The notes below the pieces were generated by a model that ran no database searches, was not told the origin of the DNA, and saw only the letters and a program-made list of their open reading frames with translations. DNA of 48,013 nt from Cohaesibacter sp. (GTDB lineage: Bacteria > Pseudomonadota > Alphaproteobacteria > Rhizobiales > Cohaesibacteraceae). The stretch covers positions 1 through 48,013 of the forward strand of contig JAOXSH010000072.1 in the NCBI GenBank assembly GCA_025800145.1. The letters run 5' to 3'. Shown piece after piece: positions 10,754 to 32,712 of this stretch. Positions within the stretch are counted from its first letter, which is position 1. Each line of letters begins with the position of its first letter. A program made the position numbers and the translations under genes.

Positions 10754-12310
10754 CTAGATATTGCTGTCTGGGAATTCAGATTTGCGGCGAGCCACAAAAT
10801 CTTTAAGCGCATCATCCACGGCTACATCCAGAGCTGGTGGCTGATAATTGGCCAGCATTTCTTTCCACTGCTTGTTGGCGCGTGTCGCAGCATCCAGTCG
10901 GCCTTCACTGTCCCATTGCTCAAAAGAATTGTTATCGGCAATAGAAGAGCGATAGAAAGCAGCCTCAAAATTACGCTGGGTATGTTCTGCACCAAGGAAG
11001 TGACCACCAGGGCCAACTTCATTAAAGGCATCCCATGCCAGAGCTTCATCGCTGACATCCACGCCTTTGGCCAAGACATGCATCATGCCCAGCTGATCGG
11101 CATCCATGAGCAGCTTCTCGTAGGAAGAGCACAAGCCCCCTTCCAGCCAACCGGCAGAGTGCAAACAGAAATTCACACCGGCATGGGTGGTGGCAAGAAT
11201 GGTATGGGCGGCTTCCTGTGCGGCCTGTGCATCTGGCAATTTCGAGGCGGTGAAAGAGCCACCCGAACGGAAAGGCAAACCAAGGCGGCGGGCAATCTGT
11301 GCAGCACCGGACAGAAGCAAGGTGCCTTCAGGCGAGCCAAAGGTTGGGGCACCAGACTGCATGGAAATGGAGGATACAAAGGCACCAAAAACAACAGGCG
11401 CGCCCGGACGCACAAGCTGTGTCAGGGCGGCGCCTGCCAGACCTTCACAATAGACTTGCGCCAGCGTACCGGCAACGGTGACCGGGCTCATAGCACCAGC
11501 CAGAATGAAAGGCGAGACGATACAGGCCTGATTGGCGCGGGCATAAACCTTCATCGCGCCCAGCATTGTGTCATCAAATACCAACGGTGAATTGGCGTTG
11601 ATGAGCTGGATCATCACGCAATTATTCTCGACAAATTCCTCACCAAAGGCAAGACGTGCCATGGCAACAGAATCGGCCGCGCGTTCCGGTGCGGTCACAG
11701 ACCCCATGAACGGTTTGTCAGAATATTTCAGATGCGCATAAACCATGTCGAAATGGCGCTTGTTCACCGCAATATCGACCGGCTCACACACTGTACCGCC
11801 AGAATGGTGCAAATGCGGCAGCATATAGACCAGTTTGACAAAATTGTTGAAGTCTTCAATGGTGCCATAGCGGCGGCCTTTGTCCAGATCAGTGACAAAG
11901 GGAGGGCCATAAACCGGCGCAAAAACCGTATTGTTACCACCAATCTGCACAGAGCGAGCAGAATTGCGGGCATGTTGGGTAAATTCGGATGGGGCGGTCT
12001 TGATCAGCTCGCGCAACATGCCTTTGGGAAAACGAACCCGCTCGCCATCGACATGGGCACCGGCTTTTTTCCAGATATCCAACACTTCGGGATCATCGCG
12101 AAATTCGATGCCGATTTCCTCAAGCATACGATCAGCTTGAGCTTCAATCTTGTCCAGACCTTCCTCAGAAATATATTCCATCAGAGGAATTTGGCGCTTC
12201 AGGTAAGCTGGTGCTGCGACAGTTCCGCCTCCACCGCGACTTTGGCGGCGTGAAGAACGGCCGCCTCCACGGCCTGAGCGTCGGGTGCCTGTAGCTGATG
12301 CATCGGCCAT
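10754..12310 (-). CDS. MttB/MtgB-family corrinoid methyltransferase without pyrrolysine
   Basis: A 518-residue member of the trimethylamine methyltransferase family (PF06253), which moves a methyl group from a quaternary or tertiary amine to a corrinoid protein. The body begins near residue 35 (LMEYISEEGLDKIEAQADRM) and has the family's RFPKGM, GGTVCEPVDI and GSPEGTLLLSGAAQ segments. No in-frame amber codon occurs, so it is not a pyrrolysine-dependent trimethylamine enzyme; the characterised non-Pyl relative MtgB of Desulfitobacterium acts on glycine betaine, which fits the betaine genes around it. ATG at 12310 follows GGGAG; a longer start at 12367 is less likely. Residues 10-29 are a basic Arg/Gly/Ser-rich tail (RRSGRGGGRSS onward). 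The substrate is inferred. Confidence 0.93.
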   Translation of the reverse strand: MADASATGTRRSGRGGGRSSRRQSRGGGGTVAAPAYLKRQIPLMEYISEEGLDKIEAQADRMLEEIGIEFRDDPEVLDIWKKAGAHVDGERVRFPKGMLRELIKTAPSEFTQHARNSARSVQIGGNNTVFAPVYGPPFVTDLDKGRRYGTIEDFNNFVKLVYMLPHLHHSGGTVCEPVDIAVNKRHFDMVYAHLKYSDKPFMGSVTAPERAADSVAMARLAFGEEFVENNCVMIQLINANSPLVFDDTMLGAMKVYARANQACIVSPFILAGAMSPVTVAGTLAQVYCEGLAGAALTQLVRPGAPVVFGAFVSSISMQSGAPTFGSPEGTLLLSGAAQIARRLGLPFRSGGSFTASKLPDAQAAQEAAHTILATTHAGVNFCLHSAGWLEGGLCSSYEKLLMDADQLGMMHVLAKGVDVSDEALAWDAFNEVGPGGHFLGAEHTQRNFEAAFYRSSIADNNSFEQWDSEGRLDAATRANKQWKEMLANYQPPALDVAVDDALKDFVARRKSEFPDSNI

Positions 12311-12748
12311 GGCTCTCACTCCCATTTTTGTCTTTTGCTTTGGCGCGTCATCTTCTCTCTTGCGCATGAGCGATGTTTGGCAAGCAATGTCTGGCTGGTA
12401 GTCATCGGTTCATAATCAAGAGATATATGTAATCTCCCTAGTCTGCCGTTCGAAATCCTCCTACCACGCTTTGTTTGCGGCCCCAATCTGCTCAAAAACG
12501 ACATTCTGGCGCAAATGGGGGAAAAGTGCGGGTTACAGCCATCGCAAACATTGCTTGGAAAAATCGGTGCGAAAGCTGAATTATGGACCGAATGGCGATA
12601 TCACGACACTTCCTGTCGTTCCAAAACTGCTAGCCAAAGATAAAGCTTTCTAGTCTAATTGGCTAAGTAAAGTTGCTTTCCTATTCCGCTACCAGTTTCA
12701 GACGGAATAGAGAGGATCAAAAGTTCGGATCATGCGGGAGGAGTTGGC
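12311..12748. promoter_or_regulatory. Divergent promoter region, mttB-like / DMGDH-like
   Basis: A 438-bp interval between two divergent genes of the same pathway and a natural place for regulator sites. Two inverted repeats stand out: ACGACA-5-TGTCGT at 12603-12619, and CTATTCCG-14-CGGAATAG at 12681-12710, the latter ending 38 bases before the dehydrogenase start. A GCGCAA motif is at 12509-12514. No coding frame here is convincing. Which protein binds is not known; the GbdR-like regulator in this window is the first candidate. Confidence 0.5.
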
Positions 12749-15259
12749 ATGAAATCGCACGCACGTGTTGTTGTTATAGGTGGTGGCGTCGTTGGGGCCT
12801 CAACACTGTATCATCTGGTTAAAAAAGGCTGGGATGATGTTGTGCTCATTGAGCGCAAGGAATTGACATCCGGCTCCACCTGGCACGCTGCCGGGTTGCT
12901 GCCTTTGTTCAACCTTAGCTACAGCGTTGGCCAGATCCACCGCTATTCAGTTGATCTGTATAATTCTATCGAGCAGGAAACCGGTCAGGTCGTTGGCCTT
13001 AGCAAAGTTTCCAACATTCGTCTTGCACGCACGCAGGACCGCATGGACGAATATAAATATTATGCCGGTGTGGCCAAGACCATTGGTGTGGATGTCAACT
13101 TCCTCACCCCTGAAGAAGTCTCTGAAGTTTGGCCTCTCTATAACCCGGAAGGCATCATTGGTGCCATTCAGCACCCAGATGATGGCTATGTGCAGCCAGC
13201 CGATCTGACACAGGCTTTTGCCAAAGGTGCGCGTGCCGGTGGCGCAGAAATCTATCGCTACACCACCGTTCTGGGCATTGATGAAAAGCCAAATGGCGAA
13301 TATGTGGTCAAGACCGATAAAGGCGAGATCACTTGTGAGCATATCGTTTCCTGTACCGGATCTTTTGCCCGCAAAACCGGCGAAATGCTCGGCCTTGACA
13401 TTCCTGTCATGCCCGTCGAACACCAATATATCGTTACCGAGCCTCATGATGCCATTCGCGAATTGCGCGAAAAAGGCATTCCTGAAATGGGCGTGTTGCG
13501 CGAGTCTGACAGCTCTTGGTATATGCGTGAAGAAAATGGCGGCTTGCTGCTTGGCCCTTACGAGATTGGGGCACCGGCCTGTTATGTGGATGGTCCGTCC
13601 GATCAGTCCGAATATGAGCTGTTCCAGGAAGATATCGACCGTCTGATGCCTTACATCGAAACCGCGATTGAGCGTGTTCCGGCCTTTGGCGAAGTGGGCA
13701 TCAAGCAGGTTTATAACGGCGCGATTGCCTATACCCCGGATGGCAATCCGATCATTGGTCCTGCATGGAACAAGAAAAATGTCTGGCTCAATGAAGGCCA
13801 TTCCTTCGGCATCACCGCTGCTGGTGGCGCTGGTTGGCAGTTGGCAGAATGGATTGTCGAAGGGGAACCAACCATCGATATGATGGGTGTGGATCCTCGC
13901 CGCTTTGGTCCTTATGCAAGCCGTGGCTATCTGAAAGAGAAGTGCGAAGAGGCCTATGCTGCCGTCTTTACCGTGCATTATCCTGATGAAGAGCGCGCGG
14001 CGGCCCGTCCGCTGAAAACCACCCCCTGCTACAGCCGCATGAAGGCTCTGGGTGCTGTCTTTGGTGCCGTTTATGGCTGGGAACGTCCAAACTGGTTCGC
14101 ACCGGAAGGCTATCAGCTGAGCGAAGAAGATCTGAATTTGCCAGATGTTCTGCTTAAAGAAAATCATTCCCCTGCTCTGGAAGATGGTCGCATCGTTGAG
14201 AAATATTCTTTCCGTCGCTCTAACTATTTCGAGCATGTGGGCAATGAAGTCAAAAACACCACTGAGAATGCCGGTCTGCTGGATCTGAGCGCCTTTGCCA
14301 AGGCCCAAGTCAAGGGACCGGGTGCCGAAGCATGGCTGAATTCTATCACCTCCAACAAAATGCCACTGAAAACAGGCCGGATCATTCTGTCTTACCTGCT
14401 CAGCGAAACAGGCGGTGTATTGTCAGAATTTTCCATTCTGAAGACCGGGCATCAGAGCTATTATCTGGTCTTTGCCGGTGCGTTTGAGCGTCACGATTAT
14501 GACTATCTGGAAAAGCTGTTGCCAGAGGATGGCTCGGTTTCTCTGGAGTTGATCACCACCCAATATGGTGTGCTGGTTCTGACCGGTCCAAAGGCTCGTG
14601 ATATCTTGCAAAAAGTCACTGACACCGATCTGTCCAACGAAGCCTTCCCGTGGCTGACCGGCAAACCAATCAATGTTGGCAAAGCCTCTGCCATGGCGGT
14701 TCGCGTGAACTTCATTGGTGAATTGGGTTGGGAGCTGCATCATCCGATCGAACAGCAAAATGCGATCTTTGATGCTTTGATGGAAGCCGGTGCAGAATTC
14801 AGCCTCAAGCCATTTGGCATCCGGGCGATGGATTCGATGCGTCTGGAAAAGAGCTACAAATTCATCACCCGCGAATTGTCTGTTGAATATAGCGCACTGG
14901 AAAGTGGTCTGGATCGCTTTATCAATAACAAAAAAGGCGATTATCGCGGCAAAGCCGGTTTGGATGCCCGCGAGGCAGCTGGCCGCAAGTGGCAGTCCAT
15001 CACTATGGAAGTGCATGGTGTGACAGATGCGGATGCGCGTGGCTCTGAAGGCATCTATCAGAATGGCGAGCTCGTTGGCCGCACCACCTCTGGTGGCTAT
15101 GGCTGGCGTATGGGCAAGAGCCTGGCGCTCGGCATGGTGCCCCCTGCTCTGTCCAATGTTGGCGAAGAATTTGAGATTGAAATTCTGGGCAACCGTTACA
15201 AAGCAACGGTACTGGGCGAATCTCCGTTCGATCCAACCAACGAGCGTCTGCGCGCCTGA
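12749..15259 (+). CDS. Dimethylglycine dehydrogenase-like FAD enzyme (DAO + GcvT domains)
   Basis: An 836-residue flavoprotein of the dimethylglycine/sarcosine dehydrogenase family. Residues 6-30 are the FAD dinucleotide fold (VVVIGGGVVGAST); GSTWHAAGL places His46 where the family attaches FAD covalently. An oxidoreductase domain runs to ~385, a linker domain (FAO_M) to ~440, and a GcvT-like tetrahydrofolate domain from ~470 to the end (VKGPGAEAW, FIGELGWELHHP, then the C-terminal barrel). The family oxidises N-methyl groups and passes formaldehyde to THF as methylene-THF. Start: ATG 11 bases after a strong GGAGGAG. It diverges from the MttB-like gene and ends in its own terminator. Dimethylglycine is the likely substrate, but close paralogues act on other N-methyl amino acids. 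Confidence 0.9.
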   Translation: MKSHARVVVIGGGVVGASTLYHLVKKGWDDVVLIERKELTSGSTWHAAGLLPLFNLSYSVGQIHRYSVDLYNSIEQETGQVVGLSKVSNIRLARTQDRMDEYKYYAGVAKTIGVDVNFLTPEEVSEVWPLYNPEGIIGAIQHPDDGYVQPADLTQAFAKGARAGGAEIYRYTTVLGIDEKPNGEYVVKTDKGEITCEHIVSCTGSFARKTGEMLGLDIPVMPVEHQYIVTEPHDAIRELREKGIPEMGVLRESDSSWYMREENGGLLLGPYEIGAPACYVDGPSDQSEYELFQEDIDRLMPYIETAIERVPAFGEVGIKQVYNGAIAYTPDGNPIIGPAWNKKNVWLNEGHSFGITAAGGAGWQLAEWIVEGEPTIDMMGVDPRRFGPYASRGYLKEKCEEAYAAVFTVHYPDEERAAARPLKTTPCYSRMKALGAVFGAVYGWERPNWFAPEGYQLSEEDLNLPDVLLKENHSPALEDGRIVEKYSFRRSNYFEHVGNEVKNTTENAGLLDLSAFAKAQVKGPGAEAWLNSITSNKMPLKTGRIILSYLLSETGGVLSEFSILKTGHQSYYLVFAGAFERHDYDYLEKLLPEDGSVSLELITTQYGVLVLTGPKARDILQKVTDTDLSNEAFPWLTGKPINVGKASAMAVRVNFIGELGWELHHPIEQQNAIFDALMEAGAEFSLKPFGIRAMDSMRLEKSYKFITRELSVEYSALESGLDRFINNKKGDYRGKAGLDAREAAGRKWQSITMEVHGVTDADARGSEGIYQNGELVGRTTSGGYGWRMGKSLALGMVPPALSNVGEEFEIEILGNRYKATVLGESPFDPTNERLRA

Positions 15260-15288
15260 CTGCATTGCAGATCTTTCGAATAATCTTG

Positions 15289-15323
15289 CAAAAGGCCGCC
15301 TTTCAGGTGGCCTTTTGTTTTTT
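15289..15323 (+). terminator. Rho-independent terminator
   Basis: CAAAAGGCCGCC and GGTGGCCTTTTG form a 12-bp stem with one mismatch or wobble and a TTTCA loop, then TTTTTT. It lies 30 bases after the DMGDH-like gene. Confidence 0.88.
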
Positions 15324-15474
15324 GAGCTTGCATAATCACATCAAAGGCAATGTGAGCGATGTCGTCAATCTTGAACAGAATGTCGCATATGATCCGCACA
15401 CAATTACCACAATCGGGATTAGTTTTTAAAATCAATGATCGATCCCGTTCAGCCAAGCAAAGAAGGACTGCCCC

Positions 15475-16548
15475 ATGACAGCGCCCACCAGTGCCCCCAA
15501 TGCCGTTGATGAGACAAAGCTGGCCAAAATCAAAGCCCTGATTGCGGAAAAAGGCGCCTTGCTTGCCGATGGCGCAACTGGCACCAATCTCTTTCCGATG
15601 GGGCTGGCCTCTGGCTGGCCACCGGAAGAATGGAATGAGACCCAGCCCGACAAGATCAGAAAATTGCATCAGGGCTTTGTTGATGCTGGCTCCGATATCA
15701 TTCTGACCAACAGCTTTGGTGGCAATCGCCACCGTCTGAAATTGCATCACTTTCAGGGCAATGTGGCCAAATGGAACATTCTGGCCGTGCAATTGGCCCG
15801 CGAAGTCGCGCAAAGTGCCAAGGATCGCGAGGTTTTGGTGGCCGGATCCATTGGCCCAACCGGTGAATTGTTCGTGCCCATGGGCAAAATGACCCATGAT
15901 GAGGCGGTGGACAGTTTCCGCGAGCAGGCCGAGGCTTTGAAAGAAGGCGGGGTTGATCTTCTTTGGATTGAGACCATGTCCTCACCAGAAGAAATTGCCG
16001 CCGCTGCCGAGGCTTGCGCTTCAACCGGTCTTCCTTTCACCATCACCGCCAGTTTTGACAGTGCCGGGCGCACCATGATGGGCATGCCACCCGAAGGACT
16101 GGGCGAGCTGGCAGAAAAACTGACCGAGGATCTGGGACAAAAGCCTTTTGCCATCGGCTCCAATTGCGGGGTTGGCGCGTCCGATCTTCTGGTGGCCATT
16201 TTGGCTCTGACCAAAGCCTATCCCGATGCCATCGTCATTGCCAAGGCCAATTGCGGCATCCCGGAAATCAAGGGCGATAAGGTTGTCTATACCGGCACAC
16301 CGGATTTGATGGGCAAATATATGCATATGGCGCTGGATGCTGGCGCCTCCATCGTGGGGGGCTGTTGTGGCACATCTCCCGATCATCTGGTTGCCATGCG
16401 CAAGGCTTTGGACAGTTATGTACCCTCTGATCGTCCAAGCCTTGATCAGATCACCGAGGAAATCGGCTTTTTGATGTCGCCCCCGCGCGATGAAGCCGAT
16501 ATTGCGAAAAACCGTCGCGGCGGCCGTGGCCGCCGGGGGCGCAGCTGA
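15475..16548 (+). CDS. bmt: Betaine-homocysteine S-methyltransferase
   Basis: A 357-residue homocysteine methyltransferase, (beta/alpha)8 barrel with a zinc site. The zinc cysteines are visible: Cys231 in GSNCGVG and Cys297-Cys298 in GGCCGT. ADGATGTNLFPMGL near residue 31 and TNSFGGNRHRLKLHH near 78 closely match rhizobial Bmt proteins as I remember them. The reaction is glycine betaine plus homocysteine to dimethylglycine plus methionine; members of the superfamily can also use S-methylmethionine or methyl-THF-linked corrinoids, so the donor is not certain. The last 12 residues, NRRGGRGRRGRS, are a basic tail like those on three other enzymes nearby. Start: ATG after AAGAAGG. It is a separate transcript from the dehydrogenase upstream. 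Confidence 0.88.
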   Translation: MTAPTSAPNAVDETKLAKIKALIAEKGALLADGATGTNLFPMGLASGWPPEEWNETQPDKIRKLHQGFVDAGSDIILTNSFGGNRHRLKLHHFQGNVAKWNILAVQLAREVAQSAKDREVLVAGSIGPTGELFVPMGKMTHDEAVDSFREQAEALKEGGVDLLWIETMSSPEEIAAAAEACASTGLPFTITASFDSAGRTMMGMPPEGLGELAEKLTEDLGQKPFAIGSNCGVGASDLLVAILALTKAYPDAIVIAKANCGIPEIKGDKVVYTGTPDLMGKYMHMALDAGASIVGGCCGTSPDHLVAMRKALDSYVPSDRPSLDQITEEIGFLMSPPRDEADIAKNRRGGRGRRGRS

Positions 16549-16926
16549 TAACAAGTGCGATTGTCTATATTCTACAATCAAAAAGGCCGGTTCAGGTTGG
16601 ATATAAAATCCTGTGCCAAGAACTGGCCTTTGTAATATTTTGACAGTCAAGAGGTGGATTTGCCAAGAAAGAACTCTGCGCTAAAAGCATGGAACCTGAT
16701 TATGGAAGATCCACACCCGCTGCTACACTTGGTGTTTAATACCAACGGCATAAAATACGCGATGGGATCTCGAAACGCTTTGGCGTCAAATCCATTGGGG
16801 GCTTTTCTGGCAGAGCGCGCGACAATGTGCAGGTTTGGAGATTATCTGGACTTTTTCCTTGTCGAATATAGCGATGAAACAACGCTGATCCTGACAGAGC
16901 GTAAACTCAATCTGATCCTATATAAA
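16549..16926. other. Intergenic stretch with a hairpin and a repeat relic
   Basis: No convincing gene. A hairpin AAAGGCCGGTT / AACTGGCCTTT (16582-16592 and 16621-16631, 28-base loop) may end the bmt transcript. A frame from 16654 to 17007 is open for 117 codons, but it runs through a strong terminator and a repeat end and matches no family I know. A degenerate repeat end (TAATACCAACGGCATAAAAT) is at 16737-16756. Confidence 0.5.
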
Positions 16927-16966
16927 ACAAAAGCCCGGCAGATCTCTCTGCCGGGCTTTTGTTTTT
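16927..16966 (+). terminator. Rho-independent terminator
   Basis: ACAAAAGCCCGGCA and TGCCGGGCTTTTGT make a perfect 14-bp stem with an 8-base loop, followed by TTTT. It is strong in the + direction and, with its A-run, possibly in the - direction too. What it terminates is unclear, since the nearest clear upstream gene (bmt) stops nearly 400 bases earlier. Confidence 0.88.
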
Positions 16967-16982
16967 CGTTTTGTCTAAAGGC

Positions 16983-17217
16983 TTATACCAACGGCATGAA
17001 AGATTGACCCATAGGATGCCTTGAAATGGTTTACTGGCAAGGCGTCGGCTCGATCGGACAATGCCGGGGCATTTTCTTTTTTGATGCGAACCTTTTTCAT
17101 TAAATTGTCAAAACAATTCAATGAGGCGCGCCCTAGAAAGACAACGCAGCTCAGTGAGCCATTTCAAGGCACCGAAGGCCGGTTTTATTGGGTAATCTTT
17201 CGTGCCGTTGGTATTAT
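16983..17217. mobile_element. MITE-like element with terminal inverted repeats
   Basis: A 235-bp element bounded by TTATACCAACGGCATGAAAG on the left and, inverted, TAATACCAACGGCACGAAAG on the right. The similarity continues inward: AGATTGACCC opposite AGATTACCC, and TGCCTTGAAATGG opposite the same motif. It encodes no protein. Its right tip supplies the TAA stop codon of the RACE gene. Single end-like copies occur elsewhere in the window. Confidence 0.7.
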
Positions 17218-19355
17218 CCGCGTGAGCGTCTGCCACCGCGACGGCGGGGCTTGTCACTGCCCTCAACGGTTGCAGGTACAAAGGCAGGCAATTCGCGTTG
17301 ACTGCGCAGCAAGGGATAAGGGTCGACCTTGTTGGGGAAGGCCATGGCATTGACAAAATGTTCCTGAAAACGTGGCTCGACTGCGGTTTCAATCTTTTCG
17401 ATATCATACACGGCTTGCTCAATTTCGCGTCTGGCATCCCGGCTGACCAGAGCTTTGCGCGCTCCGGTGCCTGCCGCATTGCCCACACCAGAGACCGCGT
17501 CCAGCGAGCAATCAGGGATTAGGCCCAAAATCATCGCATAATCTGGATCGATGAAAGAGCCAAAGGCCCCAGCCAGTTTGATGCGGTCGAGCTTGTCGAC
17601 CCCCATCTTTTCCATCAGCAATTTTGCCCCGGCATAAAGGGCGGCTTTGGCCAGTTGAATGGCACGGACATCGGTTTGTTTGATGGTCAGTGGCACGGTG
17701 CCATCCCACAGACGATATTGATAGGTGCGGCCATCCTGTTCAATGCGCGAGCTGCGCTCTGCCATATGGGGCTGCACCACCCCGTCGCTGGAAAGGATGC
17801 CACACAGATACATTTCAGCAATGATTTCAACAATGCCAGAGCCACAAATGCCGGTGACACCAACCTTGTCAATTTCTTCTGCAAATTCCGGCTCATCAGA
17901 CCAATGGTCCACGCCAATCACCTTGATGCGTGGCTCCAGAGTTGTGCGATTGATCCGCACGCGCTCAATCGCACCGGGCGCGGCACGCTGGCCACAGGAA
18001 ATTTCCGCCCCTTCAAAGGCCGGTCCTGTTGGTGATGAGGCGGCCATCAGGCGCTCTTTATTGCCAAGCAAAATCTCGGCATTGGTGCCCACATCAATGA
18101 TCAATGTTGTCTCATCGCTTTTATAGGGTTCTTCCGCCAGCGCAACGGCGGCGGCATCGGCCCCCACATGCCCGGCAATGCAGGGCAGCACATAGACTTT
18201 GCCCGCCGGATGCAAGGACATGCCAATATCACGGGCCGGAATCACCTGCGCATCTGACAGGGACAGAGCAAAAGGCGCCCCCCCCAATTCTACCGGATCA
18301 ATGCCAAGAAAAATATGATGCATGACCGGGTTGGCCACGATGGTCATTTCCAGAATGTCTTCTGAAGTCAGACCCACTTGCCCGGCCAATTTGCCAATCA
18401 GAACATTGAGGGCATCGCGCACAGACTTGACCAGATCGGGCAAACGACCGGGATTCATCTGCACATAGGAGACCCGCGACATCAAATCTTCGCCAAAGCG
18501 GATTTGCGGATTGGCTGTACCGGAAGACGCAACCGCGCGGCCATTGCTGAGATCACAAAGATGGGCGGCAATGGTGGTTGAGCCAATATCCACCGCAAGG
18601 CCATAGCCGCGCTTTTTCTGGCCCGGCCAGAGCGCGATAATGGTGGGTGGAACCGTGACATCTTCATAAATGGCGGCTGTTACCTGCCATTTGCCTTTGC
18701 GCAACGTGGTTTGCAAATTGGCAAAAAGGGATGGGTCCATCGTGATCTGATCCAGACCAGTGGCGAGTTTGAGAACCCGAATAAGGCGGTTGGCATCGCT
18801 CTCGCCCTTTTCCATATCCGGCTCTTCGACGCCAACACAAACCAGTCGCGTGGCCGGATTTGGTTTGATCGTGAGTTTTTCTGCGCGCTTGCGAACAACC
18901 TGCGCATTGATCTGCACATCTTGTGGCACATCGACCACAAGATCGCCTTGTACTGTTGCGGTACAGGACAGGCGGCGACCTTCTTTCATAAAGCGCTTGC
19001 TGGAATAGCGCGCTTCCAAATCCCCAAAGGCGCTGAGATTGTCACTGGTGGAGCGAATGCCGTCTTTGGCAAAAGTGCCTTCCGAGACTTCGATCTGACA
19101 GCGGCCACAAATGCCGCGTCCCCCACAGACCGATTCGATATAGACACCCAGCGAACGAGCCGCATCCAGCACCGAGGTGCCATGGGCAAAGCGTCCACGT
19201 TTTCCGCTTGGCTGGAAGACCACCAAAGGATCTTTGGTGGCAGCAGCAGATGCTGACGCTGGTTTGTTGCTGTTGCCAGCGGCCTCATTTCCTTGGTCTG
19301 GCAAAGAAGAATTGGCGTCACTGTCAGCTGTTTCAGAGGTGATTTGGTCCGTCAC
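17214..19355 (-). CDS. Reductive activator of corrinoid proteins (RACE/RamA-like, 2Fe-2S + ASKHA)
   Basis: A 713-residue protein with an N-terminal 2Fe-2S ferredoxin domain (cysteines 77, 83, 86 and 131; CGGRGICGRC) followed by a long ASKHA-type ATPase region (DUF4445): GLAVDIGSTTIAAHLCDL near 260, LIIDVGTNAEILL near 425, GICGSGIVE near 510 and KLAGAFGSF near 600. Such proteins use ATP to return inactive cob(II)alamin to cob(I)alamin on corrinoid methyltransferase partners, which is the job expected here. The first ~40 residues are a low-complexity Ser/Ala/Asn-rich leader. Translation starts at a GTG (19353-19355) after GAGGT. The C-terminus is KPRRRGGRRSRG, another Arg/Gly tail, and the stop codon lies in the tip of a MITE-like element. 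Confidence 0.9.
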   Translation of the reverse strand: MTDQITSETADSDANSSLPDQGNEAAGNSNKPASASAAATKDPLVVFQPSGKRGRFAHGTSVLDAARSLGVYIESVCGGRGICGRCQIEVSEGTFAKDGIRSTSDNLSAFGDLEARYSSKRFMKEGRRLSCTATVQGDLVVDVPQDVQINAQVVRKRAEKLTIKPNPATRLVCVGVEEPDMEKGESDANRLIRVLKLATGLDQITMDPSLFANLQTTLRKGKWQVTAAIYEDVTVPPTIIALWPGQKKRGYGLAVDIGSTTIAAHLCDLSNGRAVASSGTANPQIRFGEDLMSRVSYVQMNPGRLPDLVKSVRDALNVLIGKLAGQVGLTSEDILEMTIVANPVMHHIFLGIDPVELGGAPFALSLSDAQVIPARDIGMSLHPAGKVYVLPCIAGHVGADAAAVALAEEPYKSDETTLIIDVGTNAEILLGNKERLMAASSPTGPAFEGAEISCGQRAAPGAIERVRINRTTLEPRIKVIGVDHWSDEPEFAEEIDKVGVTGICGSGIVEIIAEMYLCGILSSDGVVQPHMAERSSRIEQDGRTYQYRLWDGTVPLTIKQTDVRAIQLAKAALYAGAKLLMEKMGVDKLDRIKLAGAFGSFIDPDYAMILGLIPDCSLDAVSGVGNAAGTGARKALVSRDARREIEQAVYDIEKIETAVEPRFQEHFVNAMAFPNKVDPYPLLRSQRELPAFVPATVEGSDKPRRRGGRRSRG

Positions 19356-19611
19356 GTTTTACCTCATCATGATTGAGATGACCAAAGAAGGGAAAAACGC
19401 TTCAAATTTTCTTGTGAAGCTGGCTTGCTATGTTCTTGCGAACGAGCCGGGGAGCCTGCTTCATGATGCCTGAAAGTGAGATGCTGGCAAGGCAAGTTTT
19501 GAAGGAACTTTTCTTTCCCTTGGTACACGGAGCCCGGGTGAAGCATAAAGCGTCCCCCGGGATCTGAATTTTGTAGATCTTTTCCCTCATGCGATAAGGG
19601 AAACGTGCTAT
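19356..19611. other. Spacer between pterin methyltransferase and RACE genes
   Basis: 256 bases with no gene. It has a modest hairpin, TTTCCCT / AGGGAAA (19581-19603), without a U-run, and a CCCGGG pair around 19533-19561. I looked for a cobalamin riboswitch because of the B12-linked neighbours and saw no convincing B12 box. Confidence 0.4.
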
Positions 19612-20526
19612 TCATTTTGCAGGACGCGCGCGACGACCGCCACGACGACGACCACCGCCGGCCTCATCAGCAGCTGCAGCTGCCGGGTCACGGTTGGCCT
19701 TGATCCAGGCCATGCAATCCGGGTCCACGCCGTTTAGAACGTCGGCGGCGCGAATGCCGTCCAGCTCTTCTTTATGCAGCGGGTTCATAATGGCAGAAGT
19801 CATGCCAGCAACAGACGCCATGGCAAGGAAATGCGCATTCATCACATGGCGGTTCGGAATGCCAAAGGAAATGTTGGAGGCACCACAGGTGGAATTGACC
19901 TTCAACTCTTCTTTCAGACGGCGTAGAAGGTGGAAAACCTGCTTGCCTGCATCATTCATCGCGCCAATTGGCATAACCAGCGGGTCAACCACAACGTCAG
20001 CTGCCGGGATGCCATGATCCTGAGCGCGCTCAACAATCTTCTTGGCCACTTCAAAGCGCACATCCGGGTCGGTGGAAATGCCGGTCTCATCATTGGAGAT
20101 GGCAACAACAGCAGCGCCATATTTCTTGACCAATGGCAGAACGCGCTCAAGGCTTTCATCTTCACCGGTGACAGAATTGACCAATGCCTTGCCCTGATAA
20201 ACAGACAGGCCCGCTTCCAGAGCGTCAATGATAGAGCTGTCGATACAGATTGGCACATCAACCAATGACTGAACCAGCTTGATGGTTTCGGCCAAAATGG
20301 CTGGCTCGTCTGCCAGTGGAATACCGGCATTGACATCGAGCATATGCGCGCCTGCAGCAACCTGAGCCAGAGCATCGGCCTTAACGGTCTCGAAATTACC
20401 CTCTTTCATTTCGGCAGCAAGTTTCTTGCGGCCTGTTGGGTTGATGCGTTCGCCAATGATGCAAAATGGCTGGTCAAAGCCGATGATGACTTCCTGCTTA
20501 TGGGAGCTCACGATTGTTTTTGTCAT
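19612..20526 (-). CDS. Methyltetrahydrofolate:corrinoid (pterin-binding) methyltransferase
   Basis: A 304-residue pterin-binding (DHPS-like) TIM barrel. FCIIGERINPTGRKKLAAEM near residue 21, AHMLDVNAGIP near 60 and STCGASNISFGIPNR near 212 are the marks of the AcsE/MtvA/MtgA-type enzymes and of the folate module of MetH. It would transfer the methyl group between methyl-corrinoid and tetrahydrofolate; in a catabolic setting the direction is toward methyl-THF. The ATG overlaps the stop of the MetF-like gene by four bases (ATGA), so the two are translationally coupled. The C-terminus ends GGGRRRGGRRARPAK, the same kind of basic tail as on three neighbours. The RACE gene follows in the same direction after 256 bases. 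Confidence 0.9.
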   Translation of the reverse strand: MTKTIVSSHKQEVIIGFDQPFCIIGERINPTGRKKLAAEMKEGNFETVKADALAQVAAGAHMLDVNAGIPLADEPAILAETIKLVQSLVDVPICIDSSIIDALEAGLSVYQGKALVNSVTGEDESLERVLPLVKKYGAAVVAISNDETGISTDPDVRFEVAKKIVERAQDHGIPAADVVVDPLVMPIGAMNDAGKQVFHLLRRLKEELKVNSTCGASNISFGIPNRHVMNAHFLAMASVAGMTSAIMNPLHKEELDGIRAADVLNGVDPDCMAWIKANRDPAAAAADEAGGGRRRGGRRARPAK

Positions 20527-21425
20527 GATGCGGCCTCTGTTTTGGAAGGGGATGGATCTGTATTTTGTGTCTGGGCGGACCAGCTGCCACGACTATTCAG
20601 CCAATCGGCAGTTTTGGCAACGCCTCCAAAAGGATAGACGTGAATTTGGGCCAGTGCTCCTGCGCCACCCTTTTGAATGGCCTCCTCAAGCGGCGCAACA
20701 ACACGGTCCGGGTTATAGCCGGTCAGAAGCGGCAGCAGAGATGCGCCTTTCTTCTTTAAGAATTGAACAGAATTATCCAGCCCGACAAGGGCGGCATATT
20801 TCATCAAGGTTGTGGTTTTGGCAGGACCGGCAATGCCCACATGCACGGGGAATTTGTTGCCCCAGCTGTCCAGCTCGCCCAGCCAGTCCAAAATGCGCTT
20901 TGGGTCAAATCCAAACTGGGTGACAATGCGGAATTGTGCATCGCTGGTCTGCGCATAATCATGCTTTTGCATCAAAAAAGAACGGATGGCATCCGGCGTG
21001 ATATCCGGTGCGCCACTTGGATGGCCGGCAACCGCAATATGGGTGATGCCATGCTTGTCAAAGATGCCAGTGCGCATCAAATCCAAGGAGGAGGAAATGG
21101 GGCCGGGTTCCGGCGCTTCCCCTGCAATGGTCAGCACTTCGCGCACACCGGCCTCGCCAACAAGGCGCTCAAGGCGGGCTTCTGCGGCCTCAGCGCTGGC
21201 AAAACGGCGCGCTGCAAAATGAGGCACAGGATTGTGACCGGCTTTGGCAAGGCGTGCATTGCCCGCAATGATCATCTCTTCTGGAACATTGCCAAGATCG
21301 GTTACATAAACGCGACAGCCATTTGGAATCAGATCATAAATGTCATCGCGTTCCACGGCCTGTTTTGGGGAAACTTCAATCGAAGCGGAAAATTTTCCAG
21401 CTTCATTCAAAACTGAATGCGTCAT
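20523..21425 (-). CDS. Methylenetetrahydrofolate reductase family protein (MetF-like)
   Basis: A 300-residue TIM-barrel protein of the MetF/MTHFR family (PF02219), in which FAD mediates methyl-THF/methylene-THF interconversion. Visible are FSASIEVSPKQ near residue 13, GNVPEEMIIAGNARLAKAG near 45, FRIVTQFGFDPKRILDWL near 160 and HVGIAGPAKTTTLMKYA near 195. I use the ATG at 21425, four bases after the preceding stop and after AAAGGAC; upstream in-frame starts run into the preceding gene. Position between the PF13769 and pterin methyltransferase genes suggests a dedicated oxidative role, turning methyl-THF made by the corrinoid route into methylene-THF. Canonical MetF works mostly in the reductive direction, so this is inference. 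Confidence 0.85.
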   Translation of the reverse strand: MTHSVLNEAGKFSASIEVSPKQAVERDDIYDLIPNGCRVYVTDLGNVPEEMIIAGNARLAKAGHNPVPHFAARRFASAEAAEARLERLVGEAGVREVLTIAGEAPEPGPISSSLDLMRTGIFDKHGITHIAVAGHPSGAPDITPDAIRSFLMQKHDYAQTSDAQFRIVTQFGFDPKRILDWLGELDSWGNKFPVHVGIAGPAKTTTLMKYAALVGLDNSVQFLKKKGASLLPLLTGYNPDRVVAPLEEAIQKGGAGALAQIHVYPFGGVAKTADWLNSRGSWSAQTQNTDPSPSKTEAAS

Positions 21426-21429
21426 GCCA

Positions 21430-21735
21430 TCAGTCCTTTTGTTCATAGCCCTTATGGGAGACCAACAGCGCAAGACGGGATGAAGGATAGGCCTCGACCA
21501 ATGCATCACATGCAGTTGCCGCTTCCTGGTCCAGATCATCGGATACATCAACCGGGGCTGCGCGCCGCCAGTCTGCCAGATAGGCTTCGCTATCTTTGGC
21601 ACCATCCGTCATGGCACATTTGTCAATCGCTTTGATAAAGATGTCCGGCAGCTCACGCTTGGCGCTTTTGCGCCCTTTTTTGACAATGACCTGTGCAGGG
21701 ATGTCTCTCCAATAGACGATGATTTTCTGTGCCAA
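21430..21735 (-). CDS. PF13769 'virulence factor' family protein
   Basis: A 101-residue soluble protein that matches the small alphaproteobacterial family labelled 'virulence factor' (PF13769): IIVYWRDIPAQVIVKKGR at the N-terminus, then KRELPDIF and AIDKCAM. The label comes from an old mutant screen and says nothing about biochemistry. Here it is the first gene of an operon with the MetF-like and pterin methyltransferase genes (4-base gap, then a 4-base overlap), which points to a part in corrinoid/folate methyl transfer, perhaps as an accessory subunit. No metal motif or catalytic residue is obvious. The ATG at 21735 has GGAGG just upstream. Confidence 0.8.
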   Translation of the reverse strand: MAQKIIVYWRDIPAQVIVKKGRKSAKRELPDIFIKAIDKCAMTDGAKDSEAYLADWRRAAPVDVSDDLDQEAATACDALVEAYPSSRLALLVSHKGYEQKD

Positions 21736-22041: not shown

Positions 22042-22719
22042 TCAGGCTTTTGCCAAAAACTGATTGAGATCACCATAACCGGTCTGGCGTACTTCCAAGG
22101 GCAATTGCAATTTTTCAGCGGCTTCTTGAGCTTTTTGCACCAGATCCTCTTCGGCATTTTGCACCAGATAAACCAGTTTTTCATAATGCTGAAAATAACT
22201 GTCGCGCAATTGCGGGAATCGATCAAGACCAAGCGGGCGAATGACCATACTGTCAAAATGGCGCACCAGAAAATCAGTCAGATAGAAAGAGGTAAATTCT
22301 TCATCGGCATGTTGGGCAAAAATGTCATTGCCACTGAAAAAGGCGTAACAATGGGGGCCATCAAGCCGGGCAATGCCCTCTTCTTTCAGCACTTTGTCCA
22401 GCAAGCCACCGGTGCCACAATCGCCATAGCCGATAAGCAGCTCGTCATAATGGGGGCGATGTTTGTGAATGGCCTGGCGCACAGCATCGGGAATGGCTTC
22501 TGGCTTATTGTGCAAATTGGCGGGCAGGCAAGTCAGGGTCAAATGCTCAAGACCCAGACGCTCCTTGACATCCAGCACTTCGCGGGCCAGAGCACCACAG
22601 GCGATGACAAGGGTTGAATGACTATGCGCTTTTTGCGCAAGCGGCGACACTCCCTCTTTTGGCAAGTCAGAAGCATTGGCTGCTTCTGTCATTGCATTGG
22701 AGAGTGGAGTGTCACGCAT
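22042..22719 (-). CDS. DUF1638 family protein
   Basis: A 225-residue protein from the ATG at 22719. It matches DUF1638: LVIACGALAREVLDVKE near residue 38, LTCLPANLHNKPEAI near 63, LLIGYGDCGTGG near 95 and PHCYAFFSG near 123. The conserved Cys, His and Asp suggest a metal or cofactor site, but the function of the family is not known; members are often found next to MttB-type methyltransferases. The start lies four bases after the corrinoid protein's stop, so the two are cotranscribed and probably coupled. A start 39 bases upstream would overlap that gene. Its tight link to the corrinoid protein suggests a role in cofactor loading, repair or methyl transfer (inference). Confidence 0.85.
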   Translation of the reverse strand: MRDTPLSNAMTEAANASDLPKEGVSPLAQKAHSHSTLVIACGALAREVLDVKERLGLEHLTLTCLPANLHNKPEAIPDAVRQAIHKHRPHYDELLIGYGDCGTGGLLDKVLKEEGIARLDGPHCYAFFSGNDIFAQHADEEFTSFYLTDFLVRHFDSMVIRPLGLDRFPQLRDSYFQHYEKLVYLVQNAEEDLVQKAQEAAEKLQLPLEVRQTGYGDLNQFLAKA

Positions 22720-22723
22720 GATT

Positions 22724-23425
22724 TTATCCGGCTGCGAGCTGGTTATGCTTGCGGGCAATCAGATCTTTTGCCATTTCCACAGCTACAGCTGCGTCACGGC
22801 AATACGCATCTGCGCCAATGGCTTCGCCAAATTCTTCGTTCAGCGGTGCACCACCAACCATAACGATATATTTGTCGCGCAGGCCTTTTTCTTCCAGCGT
22901 GTCGATGACAACTTTCATGTAAGGCATGGTCGTGGTCAGCAGAGCGGACATGCCCAGAATGTCTGGCTGATGCTCTTCGAGCGCTTCCAGATAGGTCTCG
23001 ACAGGGATATTGATGCCGATATCGATGACTTCAAAGCCCGCGCCTTCCATCATCATGGAAACGAGGTTTTTGCCGATATCGTGGATGTCGCCCTTAACGG
23101 TGCCAATCACCATTTTGCCCATGCGCGGTGCACCAGCTTCCGCCAGCAAGGGGCGCAAAATGGCCATGCCAGATTTCATGGCATTTGCTGACATCAACAC
23201 TTCAGGGACAAATAGAATGCCATCACGGAAGTCAACGCCAACGATGCGCATTCCTTCCACCAGAGCATCGGTTAAGACCCGGTATGCTTCCCAGCCGCGA
23301 CCCAGAAGGACATTCACGCCTTCTTCAATCTCTTCGGCAAGGCCGTCATACAGGTCATCATGCATCTGGGCCAAAAGCTCTTCGTCGTCAAGCTCTGCCA
23401 GATCGATAATTTCTTCGTCAGACAT
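22724..23425 (-). CDS. Methyltransferase corrinoid protein (B12-binding)
   Basis: A 233-residue two-domain corrinoid carrier of the MtbC/MtgC/MttC type. Residues ~5-95 form the helical cap (EGMRIVGVDFRDGILFVPEVL near 58, here EGMRIVGVDFRDG) and ~100-225 the Rossmann-like B12 domain. The cobalamin signature D-x-H-x-x-G is present as Asp113, His115 and Gly118, where His115 is the lower cobalt ligand; GMSALLTTTM (~160) and VGGAPL complete the site. It should accept methyl groups from the MttB-like enzyme and pass them to the pterin methyltransferase. The ATG at 23425 follows GGAGGAC closely; the frame continues upstream, but that part is not like the family. Confidence 0.95.
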   Translation of the reverse strand: MSDEEIIDLAELDDEELLAQMHDDLYDGLAEEIEEGVNVLLGRGWEAYRVLTDALVEGMRIVGVDFRDGILFVPEVLMSANAMKSGMAILRPLLAEAGAPRMGKMVIGTVKGDIHDIGKNLVSMMMEGAGFEVIDIGINIPVETYLEALEEHQPDILGMSALLTTTMPYMKVVIDTLEEKGLRDKYIVMVGGAPLNEEFGEAIGADAYCRDAAVAVEMAKDLIARKHNQLAAG

Positions 23426-27000: not shown

Positions 27001-27019
27001 TTTCATGCCGTTGGTATTA
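27001..27019 (-). repeat. MITE-end repeat copy
   Basis: TTTCATGCCGTTGGTATTA, the inverted form of the TAATACCAACGGCATGAAA repeat end. It lies 14 bases after the BCCT terminator, and its terminal TAA is the stop codon of the AraC-type gene read from the right. Confidence 0.75.
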
Positions 27020-28018
27020 ATTTTGCAGACTGGCGCGATAAGCTCCGGGGGTTTGCATCATGGTATGTTTGAAAATACGGGCAAAGTGCGAGGCGTCACA
27101 AAAGCCGGTCATGGCGGCGATCTGGGCAATGGAATGGGCGGGATCGGCCATCAGATATTTGGCATAATCCAGCCGAATGCGGATATTGGCCTCACGTGGC
27201 GACATGGCAAGACTGACCTCAAAACGCTGCTCCAATGTGCGGCGGCTGAGTTTCATGCGTTTGGCCAGCGCACCAACAGAGATCGGATGCTCCATTGTCT
27301 CTTGCATGATAAGCAAAGCATGTTTGACCTGCGGGTCAGAACTGGCAAGGCTCAAGGGAATACCCGGCTGGGGCTTTTCGCTTTGCTGGGCTTCATCAAT
27401 GATCATGATATTGAGGCTTTTGCGCGCCTGGGAACTGCCCACATGTTTGCTCACCAAATGGGCGGCCAGATGGGCAGAACTAACCCCACCGGAACAGGTC
27501 AGCCGATCCCCGTCAATGACAAAAATCTGGTTGGAAACCGGGTTCAAGCCGCTAAATTGCTCCAGAAAATCATCGCGGTGAAACCAGCTGACACAGCATT
27601 GGCGGCCTTTCATCAGGCCAAGACGGTGCAAGGTGAAAGCCCCAGTACATAACCCGATCAAGGGCACCTTTTTCTGGGCGGCATGAATGAGAAAGGCATT
27701 GACCTCGGCATCGAGATTTTCCACCTCATCCATCAATCCCCCCACCACCGCGATATAGTCAAAACGCTGCGGATTGCCCAATTTCTCGGTGGGTTGGACC
27801 TGAATGCCGCAACTTGATAAGATAGGCCGCATGGTCGATGACAGAACCGTCCAGTCACAAAGGATTTTGCGGCTGCTGTCGCCCTCATCGGCAGACAGGC
27901 GTAAAACATCAACAAAGCTGGCAAAGGCGCTCAAGGTAAAATGCCGGGCCAGAATGAAGGCAACAGACAGGCGGGGCCTTGTCGGGGCCAATTGGCGGTT
28001 TTTGGCGGAATGTGGCAT
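27017..28018 (-). CDS. GATase1/AraC-family regulator (GlxA type) next to sox genes
   Basis: A 333-residue regulator with the GATase1-like sensor (~16-185; VAFILARHFTLSAFASFVDVL, here FILARHFTLSAF) and AraC helix-turn-helix domain (~230-330; HPISVGALAKRMKLSRRTLEQRF region and AAMTGFCDASHFARIFK). It diverges from soxBDAG and is probably their regulator, a SouR-like (sarcosine) or CdhR-like role; the ligand is inferred only. I prefer the ATG at 28018. An upstream ATG at 28051 lies inside a perfect 28-bp palindrome that looks like an operator, and would add 11 residues not typical of the family. The TAA stop belongs to a dispersed repeat end. Confidence 0.85.
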   Translation of the reverse strand: MPHSAKNRQLAPTRPRLSVAFILARHFTLSAFASFVDVLRLSADEGDSSRKILCDWTVLSSTMRPILSSCGIQVQPTEKLGNPQRFDYIAVVGGLMDEVENLDAEVNAFLIHAAQKKVPLIGLCTGAFTLHRLGLMKGRQCCVSWFHRDDFLEQFSGLNPVSNQIFVIDGDRLTCSGGVSSAHLAAHLVSKHVGSSQARKSLNIMIIDEAQQSEKPQPGIPLSLASSDPQVKHALLIMQETMEHPISVGALAKRMKLSRRTLEQRFEVSLAMSPREANIRIRLDYAKYLMADPAHSIAQIAAMTGFCDASHFARIFKHTMMQTPGAYRASLQN

Positions 28019-28035
28019 GAGGCAAAGTCTCGTCT

Positions 28036-28063
28036 TGCGCAAAAATACCATTATTTTTGCGCA
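28036..28063. promoter_or_regulatory. Perfect 28-bp palindrome, candidate operator
   Basis: TGCGCAAAAATA and TATTTTTGCGCA are perfect 12-bp arms around CCAT. It stands 18 bases before the AraC-type gene (start 28018) and 65 bases before soxB, ideally placed to control both directions. No U-run follows, so it is more likely a protein site than a terminator. Confidence 0.7.
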
Positions 28064-29404: not shown

Positions 29405-29707
29405 ATGTTGATGATCCATTGTCCCCATTGTGAGGAAACCCTGCCAGAGCTTGAATTTGCCTATGCGGGGGAAGCCCATATTGATCGTCCGGTCAAGCCG
29501 TCTGATCTGAGCGATGAAGAATGGCGCGATTTTCTGTTCATCCGCTCCAACCCGCGCGGACAGCATTTTGAGCGCTGGCGCCATGTGCATGGTTGCGCCC
29601 GCTTTTTCAATGCGGTGCGTGATACGGTCAGTGACCAGTTTCTCACCACCTATAAAAGCGGTCTTCCCCGCCCAACTGAAGATGAGCTGAAAGAGCTGGC
29701 ACGATGA
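29405..29707 (+). CDS. soxD: Sarcosine oxidase delta subunit
   Basis: A 100-residue protein, the small zinc subunit of heterotetrameric sarcosine oxidase. CPHC at residues 6-9 and the later His and Cys (HVHGCARFFNAVRDT near 59) match the delta family, where they hold a structural zinc. The arginine-rich middle (FIRSNPRGQHFERWRH) is also typical. Strong ribosome site AAGGAGA. Its stop overlaps the soxA start by four bases (ATGA), so the two are coupled. Confidence 0.95.
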   Translation: MLMIHCPHCEETLPELEFAYAGEAHIDRPVKPSDLSDEEWRDFLFIRSNPRGQHFERWRHVHGCARFFNAVRDTVSDQFLTTYKSGLPRPTEDELKELAR

Positions 29708-32700: not shown

Positions 32701-32712
32701 CTGAAATTGTGA
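29704..32712 (+). CDS. soxA: Sarcosine oxidase alpha subunit
   Basis: The 1002-residue large subunit of heterotetrameric sarcosine oxidase. Domains in order: a ferredoxin-fold N-terminus without Fe-S cysteines (~15-95; FTFDGKSYQGLEGDTVASAL), an NAD+-binding flavoprotein-type region (~175-500; VGAGPAGIAAALQAAKSGA at 178), and a GcvT-like tetrahydrofolate domain with its C-terminal barrel (~610-1000; DASTLGKIEVTGPDAVEF, SFTGELGFEINVPARHG). The folate domain captures the methylene group released at the beta subunit. Length and order are normal for the family. ATG overlaps soxD; soxG follows after 14 bases. Confidence 0.96.
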   Translation: MSTYRVSGKGRVNPSKTVSFTFDGKSYQGLEGDTVASALLANGTHLMGRSFKYHRPRGVVTAGSEEPNALIGTTRPGSDGARFEPNGRATMQEIYEGLVVDSQNKWPSLSFDVGAINDHLYMLFSAGFYYKTFMWPKSFWDKVYEPVIRAAAGLGVSPSKPDPDIYASRYLHCDVLIVGAGPAGIAAALQAAKSGAQVVLVDEQSELGGSLLSEDSVQIDGLSASDWLKNQLDALAGMDNVRLMTRTTAIGYYHQNMVALAQKLTDHLSNIPANSPRERMWRVRAKQVVLAQGAIERPLVFDGNDRPGVLMSGAAQTYLNRFGVLVGKNPAVLTSHDSAWYAAFDMADAGAKVTAIVDTRTSVRSDLMDAAQERGIRMFLGHTATATSGRLRVKSVRIAKLEAGVASGAAQSLDCDALLMCGGWTPSLHLFSHTKGSLSWDEENRVFLPKDTNEDCQIAGACRGLWGVEGVLQDGAKAGMQAAQALGQSTDLSGYSVDADRTGSGVTHQELPTNGNPGKAKAFIDFQNDVTAKDIRLAVREGMLSIEHVKRYTTNGMATDQGKLSNMNGLEIAANAVGKEVPQVGLTTFRPPYTPTTFGAFAGYHKDGLFEATRKTPIDSWAEENGAVYEPVSQWRRAWYFPKAGEDMHQAVARECAETRKSLGMFDASTLGKIEVTGPDAVEFMNRMYTNPWTKLAPGRCRYGLMLGEDGYIMDDGVIGRMSEDNFHVTTTTGGAARVLNMMEDYLQTEWPDLKVWLTSTTEQWATIALNGPNARKVLEPFVEGQDMSDEAFPHMSVADCTVAGFPARLFRLSFTGELGFEINVPARHGRALWEALYEAGKAYDVCPYGTETMHVLRAEKGYIIVGQDTDGTVTPHDAGISWAIAKKKPDFVGMRSLQRPDLVASGRKHLIGLKTKDPKTVLEEGAQIVNDPNQPLPMKMVGHVTSSYWSPVLDRSIAMALVEGGHDRMGETVYIPMPEGVLEAEICSYVFYDPAGERLKL

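Follow-up and report, generated by a model that had tools for sequence, protein, structure and literature searches.

Arginine-rich tails on the enzymes that meet at a corrinoid protein: candidate docking motifs in a split methionine synthase of Alphaproteobacteria

The window analyzed here, a stretch of 48,013 nucleotides of contig JAOXSH010000072.1 from Cohaesibacter sp. (assembly GCA_025800145.1), carries genes for a glycine-betaine and methionine pathway that depends on a corrinoid, as recognized by Pfam and NCBIfam profile searches and the list of open reading frames (ORFs). Our subject is a set of short Arg/Gly-rich tails on four of the encoded enzymes, together with the corrinoid protein MtgC on which these enzymes may dock. 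MtgB, an MttB-family methyltransferase of 518 amino acids (aa) on the reverse strand (10754-12310; PF06253, 779 bits, E 1.2e-234; putative start ATG at 12310), has its tail at the N-terminus (residues 10-29, RRSGRGGGRSSRRQSRGGGG, 12224-12283), with a counterpart in relatives. The other three tails are C-terminal. The homocysteine S-methyltransferase module MtgE, or Bmt (15475-16548, forward strand; NCBIfam PRK07534, 472 bits, cutoff 338), ends in NRRGGRGRRGRS (16510-16545, forward strand). The reactivase RACE, a RamA-like, RACo-type ASKHA protein with a 2Fe-2S domain (17214-19355, reverse strand; PF14574, PF17651, PF17650 and PF00111), ends in KPRRRGGRRSRG (17217-17252, reverse strand). The pterin-binding methyl-tetrahydrofolate:corrinoid methyltransferase MtgD (19612-20526, reverse strand; NCBIfam PRK07535, 379 bits, cutoff 259) ends in GGGRRRGGRRARPAK (19615-19659, reverse strand), which is predicted to be disordered. 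An earlier reading of this DNA from its letters alone, hereafter the sequence-only reading, had placed all four stretches at these coordinates, and the translations agree.

These genes make up a known system, the MtgBCDE split methionine synthase and glycine-betaine demethylase. Beside the PF06253 methyltransferase, the window encodes a stand-alone B12-binding protein with a cap domain (MtgC, 233 aa, 22724-23425, reverse strand; PF02310 and PF02607, with the start ATG at 23425 inferred from relatives), separate MtgD and MtgE modules scoring above their cutoffs, and a RamA-like ASKHA reactivase (PF14574) together with DUF1638 (PF07796), the composition of the MtgBCDE/RamA/DUF1638 system. MtgE, MtgD and MtgC each match parts of MetH models. 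In the accessible text of the reports on MtgBCDE of Ruegeria pomeroyi (PMC12478193) and on the split methionine synthase of Phaeobacter inhibens (PMC5764234), families and roles are the same as in the window, with MtgB (PF06253), MtgC, MtgD, MtgE, the RamA-like protein, DUF1638 and MetF2 in common. According to the portions of the former report available to us, R. pomeroyi mtgC and mtgD mutants lose methionine synthesis and growth on betaine, and the system is widely expressed in the ocean, where it links betaine breakdown with methionine synthesis (PMC12478193).

The window tails use mixed arginine codons (CGT, CGC, CGA, CGG and AGA) and hence are not a DNA repeat. Residues 289-304 of MtgD, its tail, have predicted local distance difference test (pLDDT) values below 50 in the AlphaFold2 model. 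The structure entry 4yyc is a tailed MttB whose sequence includes the tail. Other solved relatives are without tails, as judged from where their alignments start or end: the betaine methyltransferase entry 2qne aligns from its own residue 16 to residue 36 of window MtgB, and the RACo entry 3zyy stops about 10 residues beyond the matched core. As an observation on the family model, the PF06253 match begins at residue 14 of MtgB, within the Arg/Gly tail, and the tail therefore seems to be partly built into the model. MttB folds as a TIM barrel, according to the consulted part of PMC9842639. Barrels are also formed by the homocysteine-methyltransferase and pterin-binding domains, and RACE alone differs. 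The assertion of four unrelated folds in the sequence-only reading was therefore wrong, although the four do belong to separate families.

Such tails are rare in the genome of origin. Pattern searches covered the 3.44 Mb assembly (161 contigs, 90% complete). Eight consecutive Arg/Gly codons, restricted to CGN and GGN, occur at six places. Bmt and the pterin enzyme account for two of them; the other four lie inside a biotin-ligase-like protein, in an RNase E-like protein (both names are our own reading of the sequence), at a poly-Gly C-terminus and in a frame of 76 aa in which no gene was recognised. Among long reading frames, the RNase E-like protein, Bmt and the pterin enzyme are alone in having RR followed by four Arg/Gly codons; the three other places with this pattern lie in frames of 59-76 aa. 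RACE is missed by the CGN/GGN patterns because of an AGA codon. A background of 211 ORFs from 258,788 sampled bases was scored by the number of Arg in any 12 of the final 30 residues: none reaches 6 (three reach 5), and the three of 33 window ORFs with at least 6 are exactly Bmt, RACE and the pterin enzyme. Tails equally common on unrelated proteins of this genome, which would have pointed to general bias, are thus not what these patterns and the ORF sample reveal.

The tails are also conserved in relatives. A RACE search at E 1e-60 gave a match in 77 of 385 genomes drawn from Alphaproteobacteria. The other genes were searched in 74 of these (G178, G269 and G281 were left out there), with matches for MtgC in 69, MtgD in 71, MtgE in 59 and MttB in 72; G281, examined separately, as was G178, combines an acidic MtgC with tailed RACE, MtgD and MtgB proteins. 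We counted as C-terminal tails at least 5 Arg per 12 residues within the last 45. The counts refer to fetched proteins with closed ends and putative start codons, which are part of all matches and take in the window's own proteins, three plasmids and one genome of another class. On this basis 77 of 81 RACE, 74 of 76 MtgD and 38 of 39 MtgE proteins are tailed, the last drawn from 39 of the 59 genomes with a match. Close MtgB proteins have at least 5 Arg per 12 at the N-terminus in 34 of 42 cases, and the remaining eight have 3-4 with visible RG blocks. Where MtgC, MtgD, MtgE and RACE were all measured (26 genomes or records), all three C-terminal tails reach the cut in 24.

The exceptions among RACE proteins are those of G015 (an Arg block followed by a further extension), G084 (tail-less), the second system of G287, and G313, for which the genome searches found no MtgB, C, D or E. 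For MtgD, two proteins pass the cut but were judged not tailed, namely that of the G287 second system, whose basic end belongs to a shortened C-terminus, and the second copy of G185; two others, from Sinorhizobium (C101) and Paracoccus, fail it but were judged tailed (GGRRGG tails), so that the total stays 74 of 76. The second system of G287 (locus L167, G287:C57:16657-33720) lies in a genome that also holds a tailed one; it has two corrinoid paralogues without an acidic start, and its MtgD-like and RACE-like proteins are 64% and 50% identical to those of the window. The two G185 matches to MtgD (G185:C88:45004-47230) are adjacent on the same strand, perhaps as a tandem duplication, and the second seems to leave its frame near the end.

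A further set of named loci comprised the best 80 of 588 relatives of the window MtgC (from Roseibium, Ruegeria, Leisingera, Hoeflea, Sinorhizobium, Mesorhizobium and others) and is biased for that reason. In it, C-terminal tails at the cut are found in 45 of 45 RACE, 47 of 47 MtgE and 30 of 44 MtgD proteins, and the remaining 14 MtgD have tails of the GGRRGGRAAR type, just under the cut. The 41 named MtgB N-termini divide into 15 with at least 5 Arg per 12, 17 with 4 and 9 with 3; RG blocks are present in eight of these nine and absent from that of L364. In 23 aligned MtgD proteins R294, R295 and R298 are invariant while the linker before them varies, and the Arg codons are mixed. Invariant arginines, a variable linker and mixed codons together indicate a selected short motif and not drift. 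Linker lengths range over 7-25 residues in MtgD, 6-35 in RACE and 6-65 in MtgE. The tails thus show the conserved short block, disordered segment and variable linker of a short linear docking motif, fixed positions and disorder having been assessed on MtgD.

Random variation between close relatives, which would have spoken for drift, was not observed; the tails are kept across Alphaproteobacteria. The comparison of orthologues suggested in the sequence-only reading also leans in its favour, lone homologues being tail-less (all 14, see below). A tie to gene clustering was not seen: the tails are retained in several genomes where these genes lie far apart. Outside the class, plasmid pAZKH of Azoarcus sp. 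KH32C encodes tailed MtgD and RACE proteins and an acidic MtgC; MtgB and MtgE were not found in the stretch of this plasmid. As a side observation, this betaproteobacterial record (L246) carries MtgC, DUF1638, PF13769-like, MetF-like, MtgD and RACE genes beside betaine transport genes, and a horizontal spread of the set is probable.

Other proteins of the pathway have no such tails. In the window these are, besides MtgC, the MetF2-like protein (20523-21434; no Pfam match, named after the sequence-only reading and the Azoarcus gene order), the small PF13769 protein (21430-21735; assigned by Pfam, with an acidic internal stretch in relatives), the DUF1638 protein (22042-22758; PF07796), all three on the reverse strand, and a DMGDH-like oxidoreductase; the sequence-only reading had rightly set all five apart as tail-less. 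Among fetched neighbours, which need no contact with the corrinoid protein, tails at the cut were scored in 0 of 13 MetF2, 0 of 52 PF13769, 0 of 6 DMGDH and 1 of 60 DUF1638 proteins, the single case (G233) being probably a wrong-frame read; the corresponding counts in the named loci are 0 of 14, 0 of 46, 0 of 5 and 0 of 77. Pfam names PF13769 "Virulence factor", yet in fetched loci it occurs near this metabolic set in 52 genomes or records, and the name is probably misleading.

Stand-alone homocysteine-methyltransferase domains, mostly of two-part MetH, carry tails in 0 of 14 cases (12 from genomes without a RACE match, 2 from genomes with one). Corrinoid paralogues of G196 and G289 have tail-less proteins of the MtgD-like and RACE-like kinds as neighbours. 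A Peptoclostridium plasmid match (L249) was dropped as a tail test, being a fused multidomain protein. For MttB the feature extends to paralogues: after removal of two partly covered close MttB from a bin of 25, all 23 paralogues at 40-45% identity have an Arg-rich N-terminus at the cut, as do 8 of 9 still weaker matches, partly fragments. Up to seven MttB paralogues occur per genome, according to the portions of PMC12478193 available to us, and those at 40-45% identity may feed the same MtgC. The genome of the window itself has a second MttB paralogue (L251, G000:C51:28401-29909; 43%) with its own Arg-rich N-terminus.

If the tails have a common acidic partner, MtgC is the probable one. The sequence-only reading had filed it, correctly, among the tail-less proteins and had missed this probable role. 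Its N-terminus is strongly acidic and conserved: MSDEEIIDLAELDDEELLAQMHDDLYD (23345-23425, reverse strand) has a net charge of -12 over the first 27 residues and is our proposed landing site, from the alignment of relatives and the AlphaFold2 model. The charge is -8 to -13 in 80 of 80 named relatives; the 62 MtgC proteins of the genome set for which it was determined span -6 to -14. By our reading of the alignment, the matching stretch of eight corrinoid paralogues carries -2 to -6. Not one of the 211 own-genome ORFs has a net charge of -8 or lower over its first 27 residues. In the AlphaFold2 model, residues 1-10 have a mean pLDDT of 65 and are followed by an acidic helix at 14-26. Solved corrinoid proteins align from MtgC residue 14 (7xcn, own residue 4) or 23 (1y80, own residue 9). 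An MtgC extension of 22 residues, considered at one point, was reduced by these alignments and by the helix to about 10-14 extra residues, with the acidity running into helix 1.

The enzymes with tails are the ones obliged to dock on MtgC, and the restriction to MtgC clients has exceptions. Because the two sets coincide in this manner and the MtgC N-terminus is conserved as acidic, we propose a tethering to MtgC: the tails might be disordered docking motifs that hold the clients on MtgC and replace the covalent linkage of MetH, a reading to which, with binding deduced from sequence, we give close to an even chance. The reactions of all four call for direct contact with MtgC: MtgB loads a methyl group from glycine betaine onto its cobalt, MtgD shuttles it between this cobalt and tetrahydrofolate, MtgE hands it to homocysteine, and RACE re-reduces the cobalt when inactive. 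Each client has a flexible linker that ends in an Arg-rich block (or, in MtgB, begins with one). The block would bind the acidic N-terminus of MtgC loosely and exchangeably, so that docking would raise the local concentration of clients around MtgC, allow them to take turns at the cobalamin and presumably speed turnover. The core idea of the sequence-only reading, that functional tails gather pathway enzymes on a common acidic partner, survives in this proposal; its suggestions of RNA, membrane or condensation found no support of their own.

Several observations weigh against tethering to MtgC. Phaeobacter Bmt is active alone in vitro, as stated in the accessible part of PMC12366255. Acidic stretches are not unique, and a 27-residue window of -10 or lower exists somewhere in 7 of the 211 own-genome ORFs. 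Moreover, helix 1 of the cap domain takes in some of the acidic segment, whose conservation may therefore partly serve folding. Covariation of charge between MtgC and the tails is inconsistent, with rho values, which ignore phylogeny, of -0.43 for MtgD (the expected sign), +0.29 for RACE (the opposite) and -0.14 for MtgE, and the tail charges of one genome's enzymes are uncorrelated. The second system of G287 has no RG pattern, yet its proteins end basic over 30 residues (RACE +7, MtgD +4). RACE of G084 is naturally tail-less although MtgD of the same genome is tailed. Two distant MttB-like proteins of G087 and G079, located beside non-acidic corrinoid paralogues, have R-containing N-termini (another one of G079 has not), so that in MttB the feature reaches beyond the clients of MtgC. 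DUF1638, which possibly also acts on the corrinoid, is tail-less; the consulted part of PMC5764234 proposes for it a likely role in B12 reactivation. Finally, most of the tail-less proteins used for comparison are only remotely related, at 28-38% identity.

Alternatively, the tails could assemble the enzymes on a polyanion other than a protein (RNA, polyphosphate or membrane lipid) or drive co-condensation, with MtgC joining through its acidic segment or through contacts of its fold. We regard this as unlikely. Its appeal comes from the resemblance of RG-rich, low-complexity tails to eukaryotic RGG regions that bind RNA and form condensates, as described in the part of that literature accessible to us, and from the RNase E-like protein being the only other long frame of the genome with the searched RR[RG] run. 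A general polyanion, however, leaves unexplained why the tails are largely limited to MtgC clients and missing from other pathway enzymes, and the MtgD block, short and with three fixed arginines, resembles a single motif more than it does a multivalent RGG domain. Like RGG/RG-rich disordered regions, the tails combine Arg and Gly at low complexity, with disorder predicted for MtgD; unlike them, they are short, sit behind a linker and occur on metabolic enzymes, their carriers belonging to the corrinoid pathway and not to RNA metabolism.

It is less probable still that each tail serves its own enzyme, whether in solubility, in contacts within oligomers, in the binding of substrate or folate, or in turnover of the protein. 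Folate is not used by RACE or MtgB; binding of folate polyglutamate was dismissed for this reason, as folate binding in general would leave these two unexplained. The N-terminal strands of one solved MttB do help to hold dimers and their trimer together, according to the portion of PMC9842639 available to us, which favours a local role. But similar tails on four families, and at opposite ends, would then be a coincidence, and the stand-alone homologues are tail-less.

A comparably low, marginally smaller probability goes to docking on another cluster protein as a scaffold, such as PF13769 or DUF1638. Both genes are in the same run in the window and in Azoarcus, the most acidic 27 residues of PF13769 average -7.9 in 46 named relatives, and the presence of DUF1638 tracks that of the RamA-like protein in Alphaproteobacteria, as reported in the accessible text of PMC5764234. 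MtgC, on the other hand, is more acidic (mean -10.8, against -7.9 for PF13769 and -5.3 for DUF1638), and by chemistry only MtgC must contact all four enzymes.

Compositional drift or genome-wide bias is very improbable and was rejected through the genome-wide patterns, the 211-ORF sample and the neighbour families: naive ORFs of the relatives' loci do have at least 5 Arg per 12 in the last 45 residues in 103 of 616 cases (27 of 219 after a conservation filter), but many look like shadow frames in G+C-rich DNA and this background was set aside, whereas no own-genome ORF in the sample reaches 6 per 12, the window is about 52% G+C, neighbour families of the same relatives are tail-less, and Arg positions are fixed while linkers vary.

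Comparison with known systems helps to place a tethering to MtgC. MetH performs the same chemistry with homocysteine, pterin and cobalamin modules; unlike in the window set, these modules form one chain, for which reason MetH needs no tethers. In the two-part MetH of this class, the stand-alone homocysteine-methyltransferase domains are tail-less, in contrast to MtgE. A precedent for an N-terminal addition to a corrinoid protein used in docking is the methanol methyltransferase MtaB-MtaC, where, in the consulted part of PMC9842639, an added N-terminal domain of MtaC fits a groove between the MtaB subunits and seems to stabilise the complex. That addition is a folded domain with one partner, whereas in MtgC it is a short acidic segment, proposed for four partners.

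We found no description of how the separate modules are held together, or alternate at the cobalamin, in the accessible text of PMC12478193 and PMC5764234. The words "arginine", "disordered" and "tail" have 0 occurrences in the former, and "arginine-rich" has 0 in the latter. Neither the tails nor the acidic segment turned up in the searchable literature, including PMC12366255; subscription papers are mostly outside it, and an earlier mention is possible.

Several neighbouring genes complete the locus. A GbdR-like regulator lies nearby, its match being below the cutoff of that model, and a downstream ORF reads as a BCCT transporter, by our own naming. Further downstream observations are a second DJ-1/PfpI-AraC regulator (27017-28051) and a sarcosine-oxidase-alpha-like protein (29704-32712), both in keeping with a stepwise demethylation of betaine.

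Docking through short charged motifs is a known mechanism. A form of it shared between one B12 carrier and four or more clients would be a new variation. More generally, and somewhat more doubtfully than tethering as such, we envisage a charge-coded docking in which one acidic socket on the B12 carrier receives Arg-rich plugs on every client, namely several MttB-type demethylases that differ in substrate, two methyl acceptor modules and the reactivase, and an exchangeable, non-covalent machine replaces the covalent MetH; new methyl donors could then be connected by the acquisition of a plug. If true, a tailed PF06253 protein would be predictable as a feeder of MtgC, and this would aid the assignment of the MttB paralogues.

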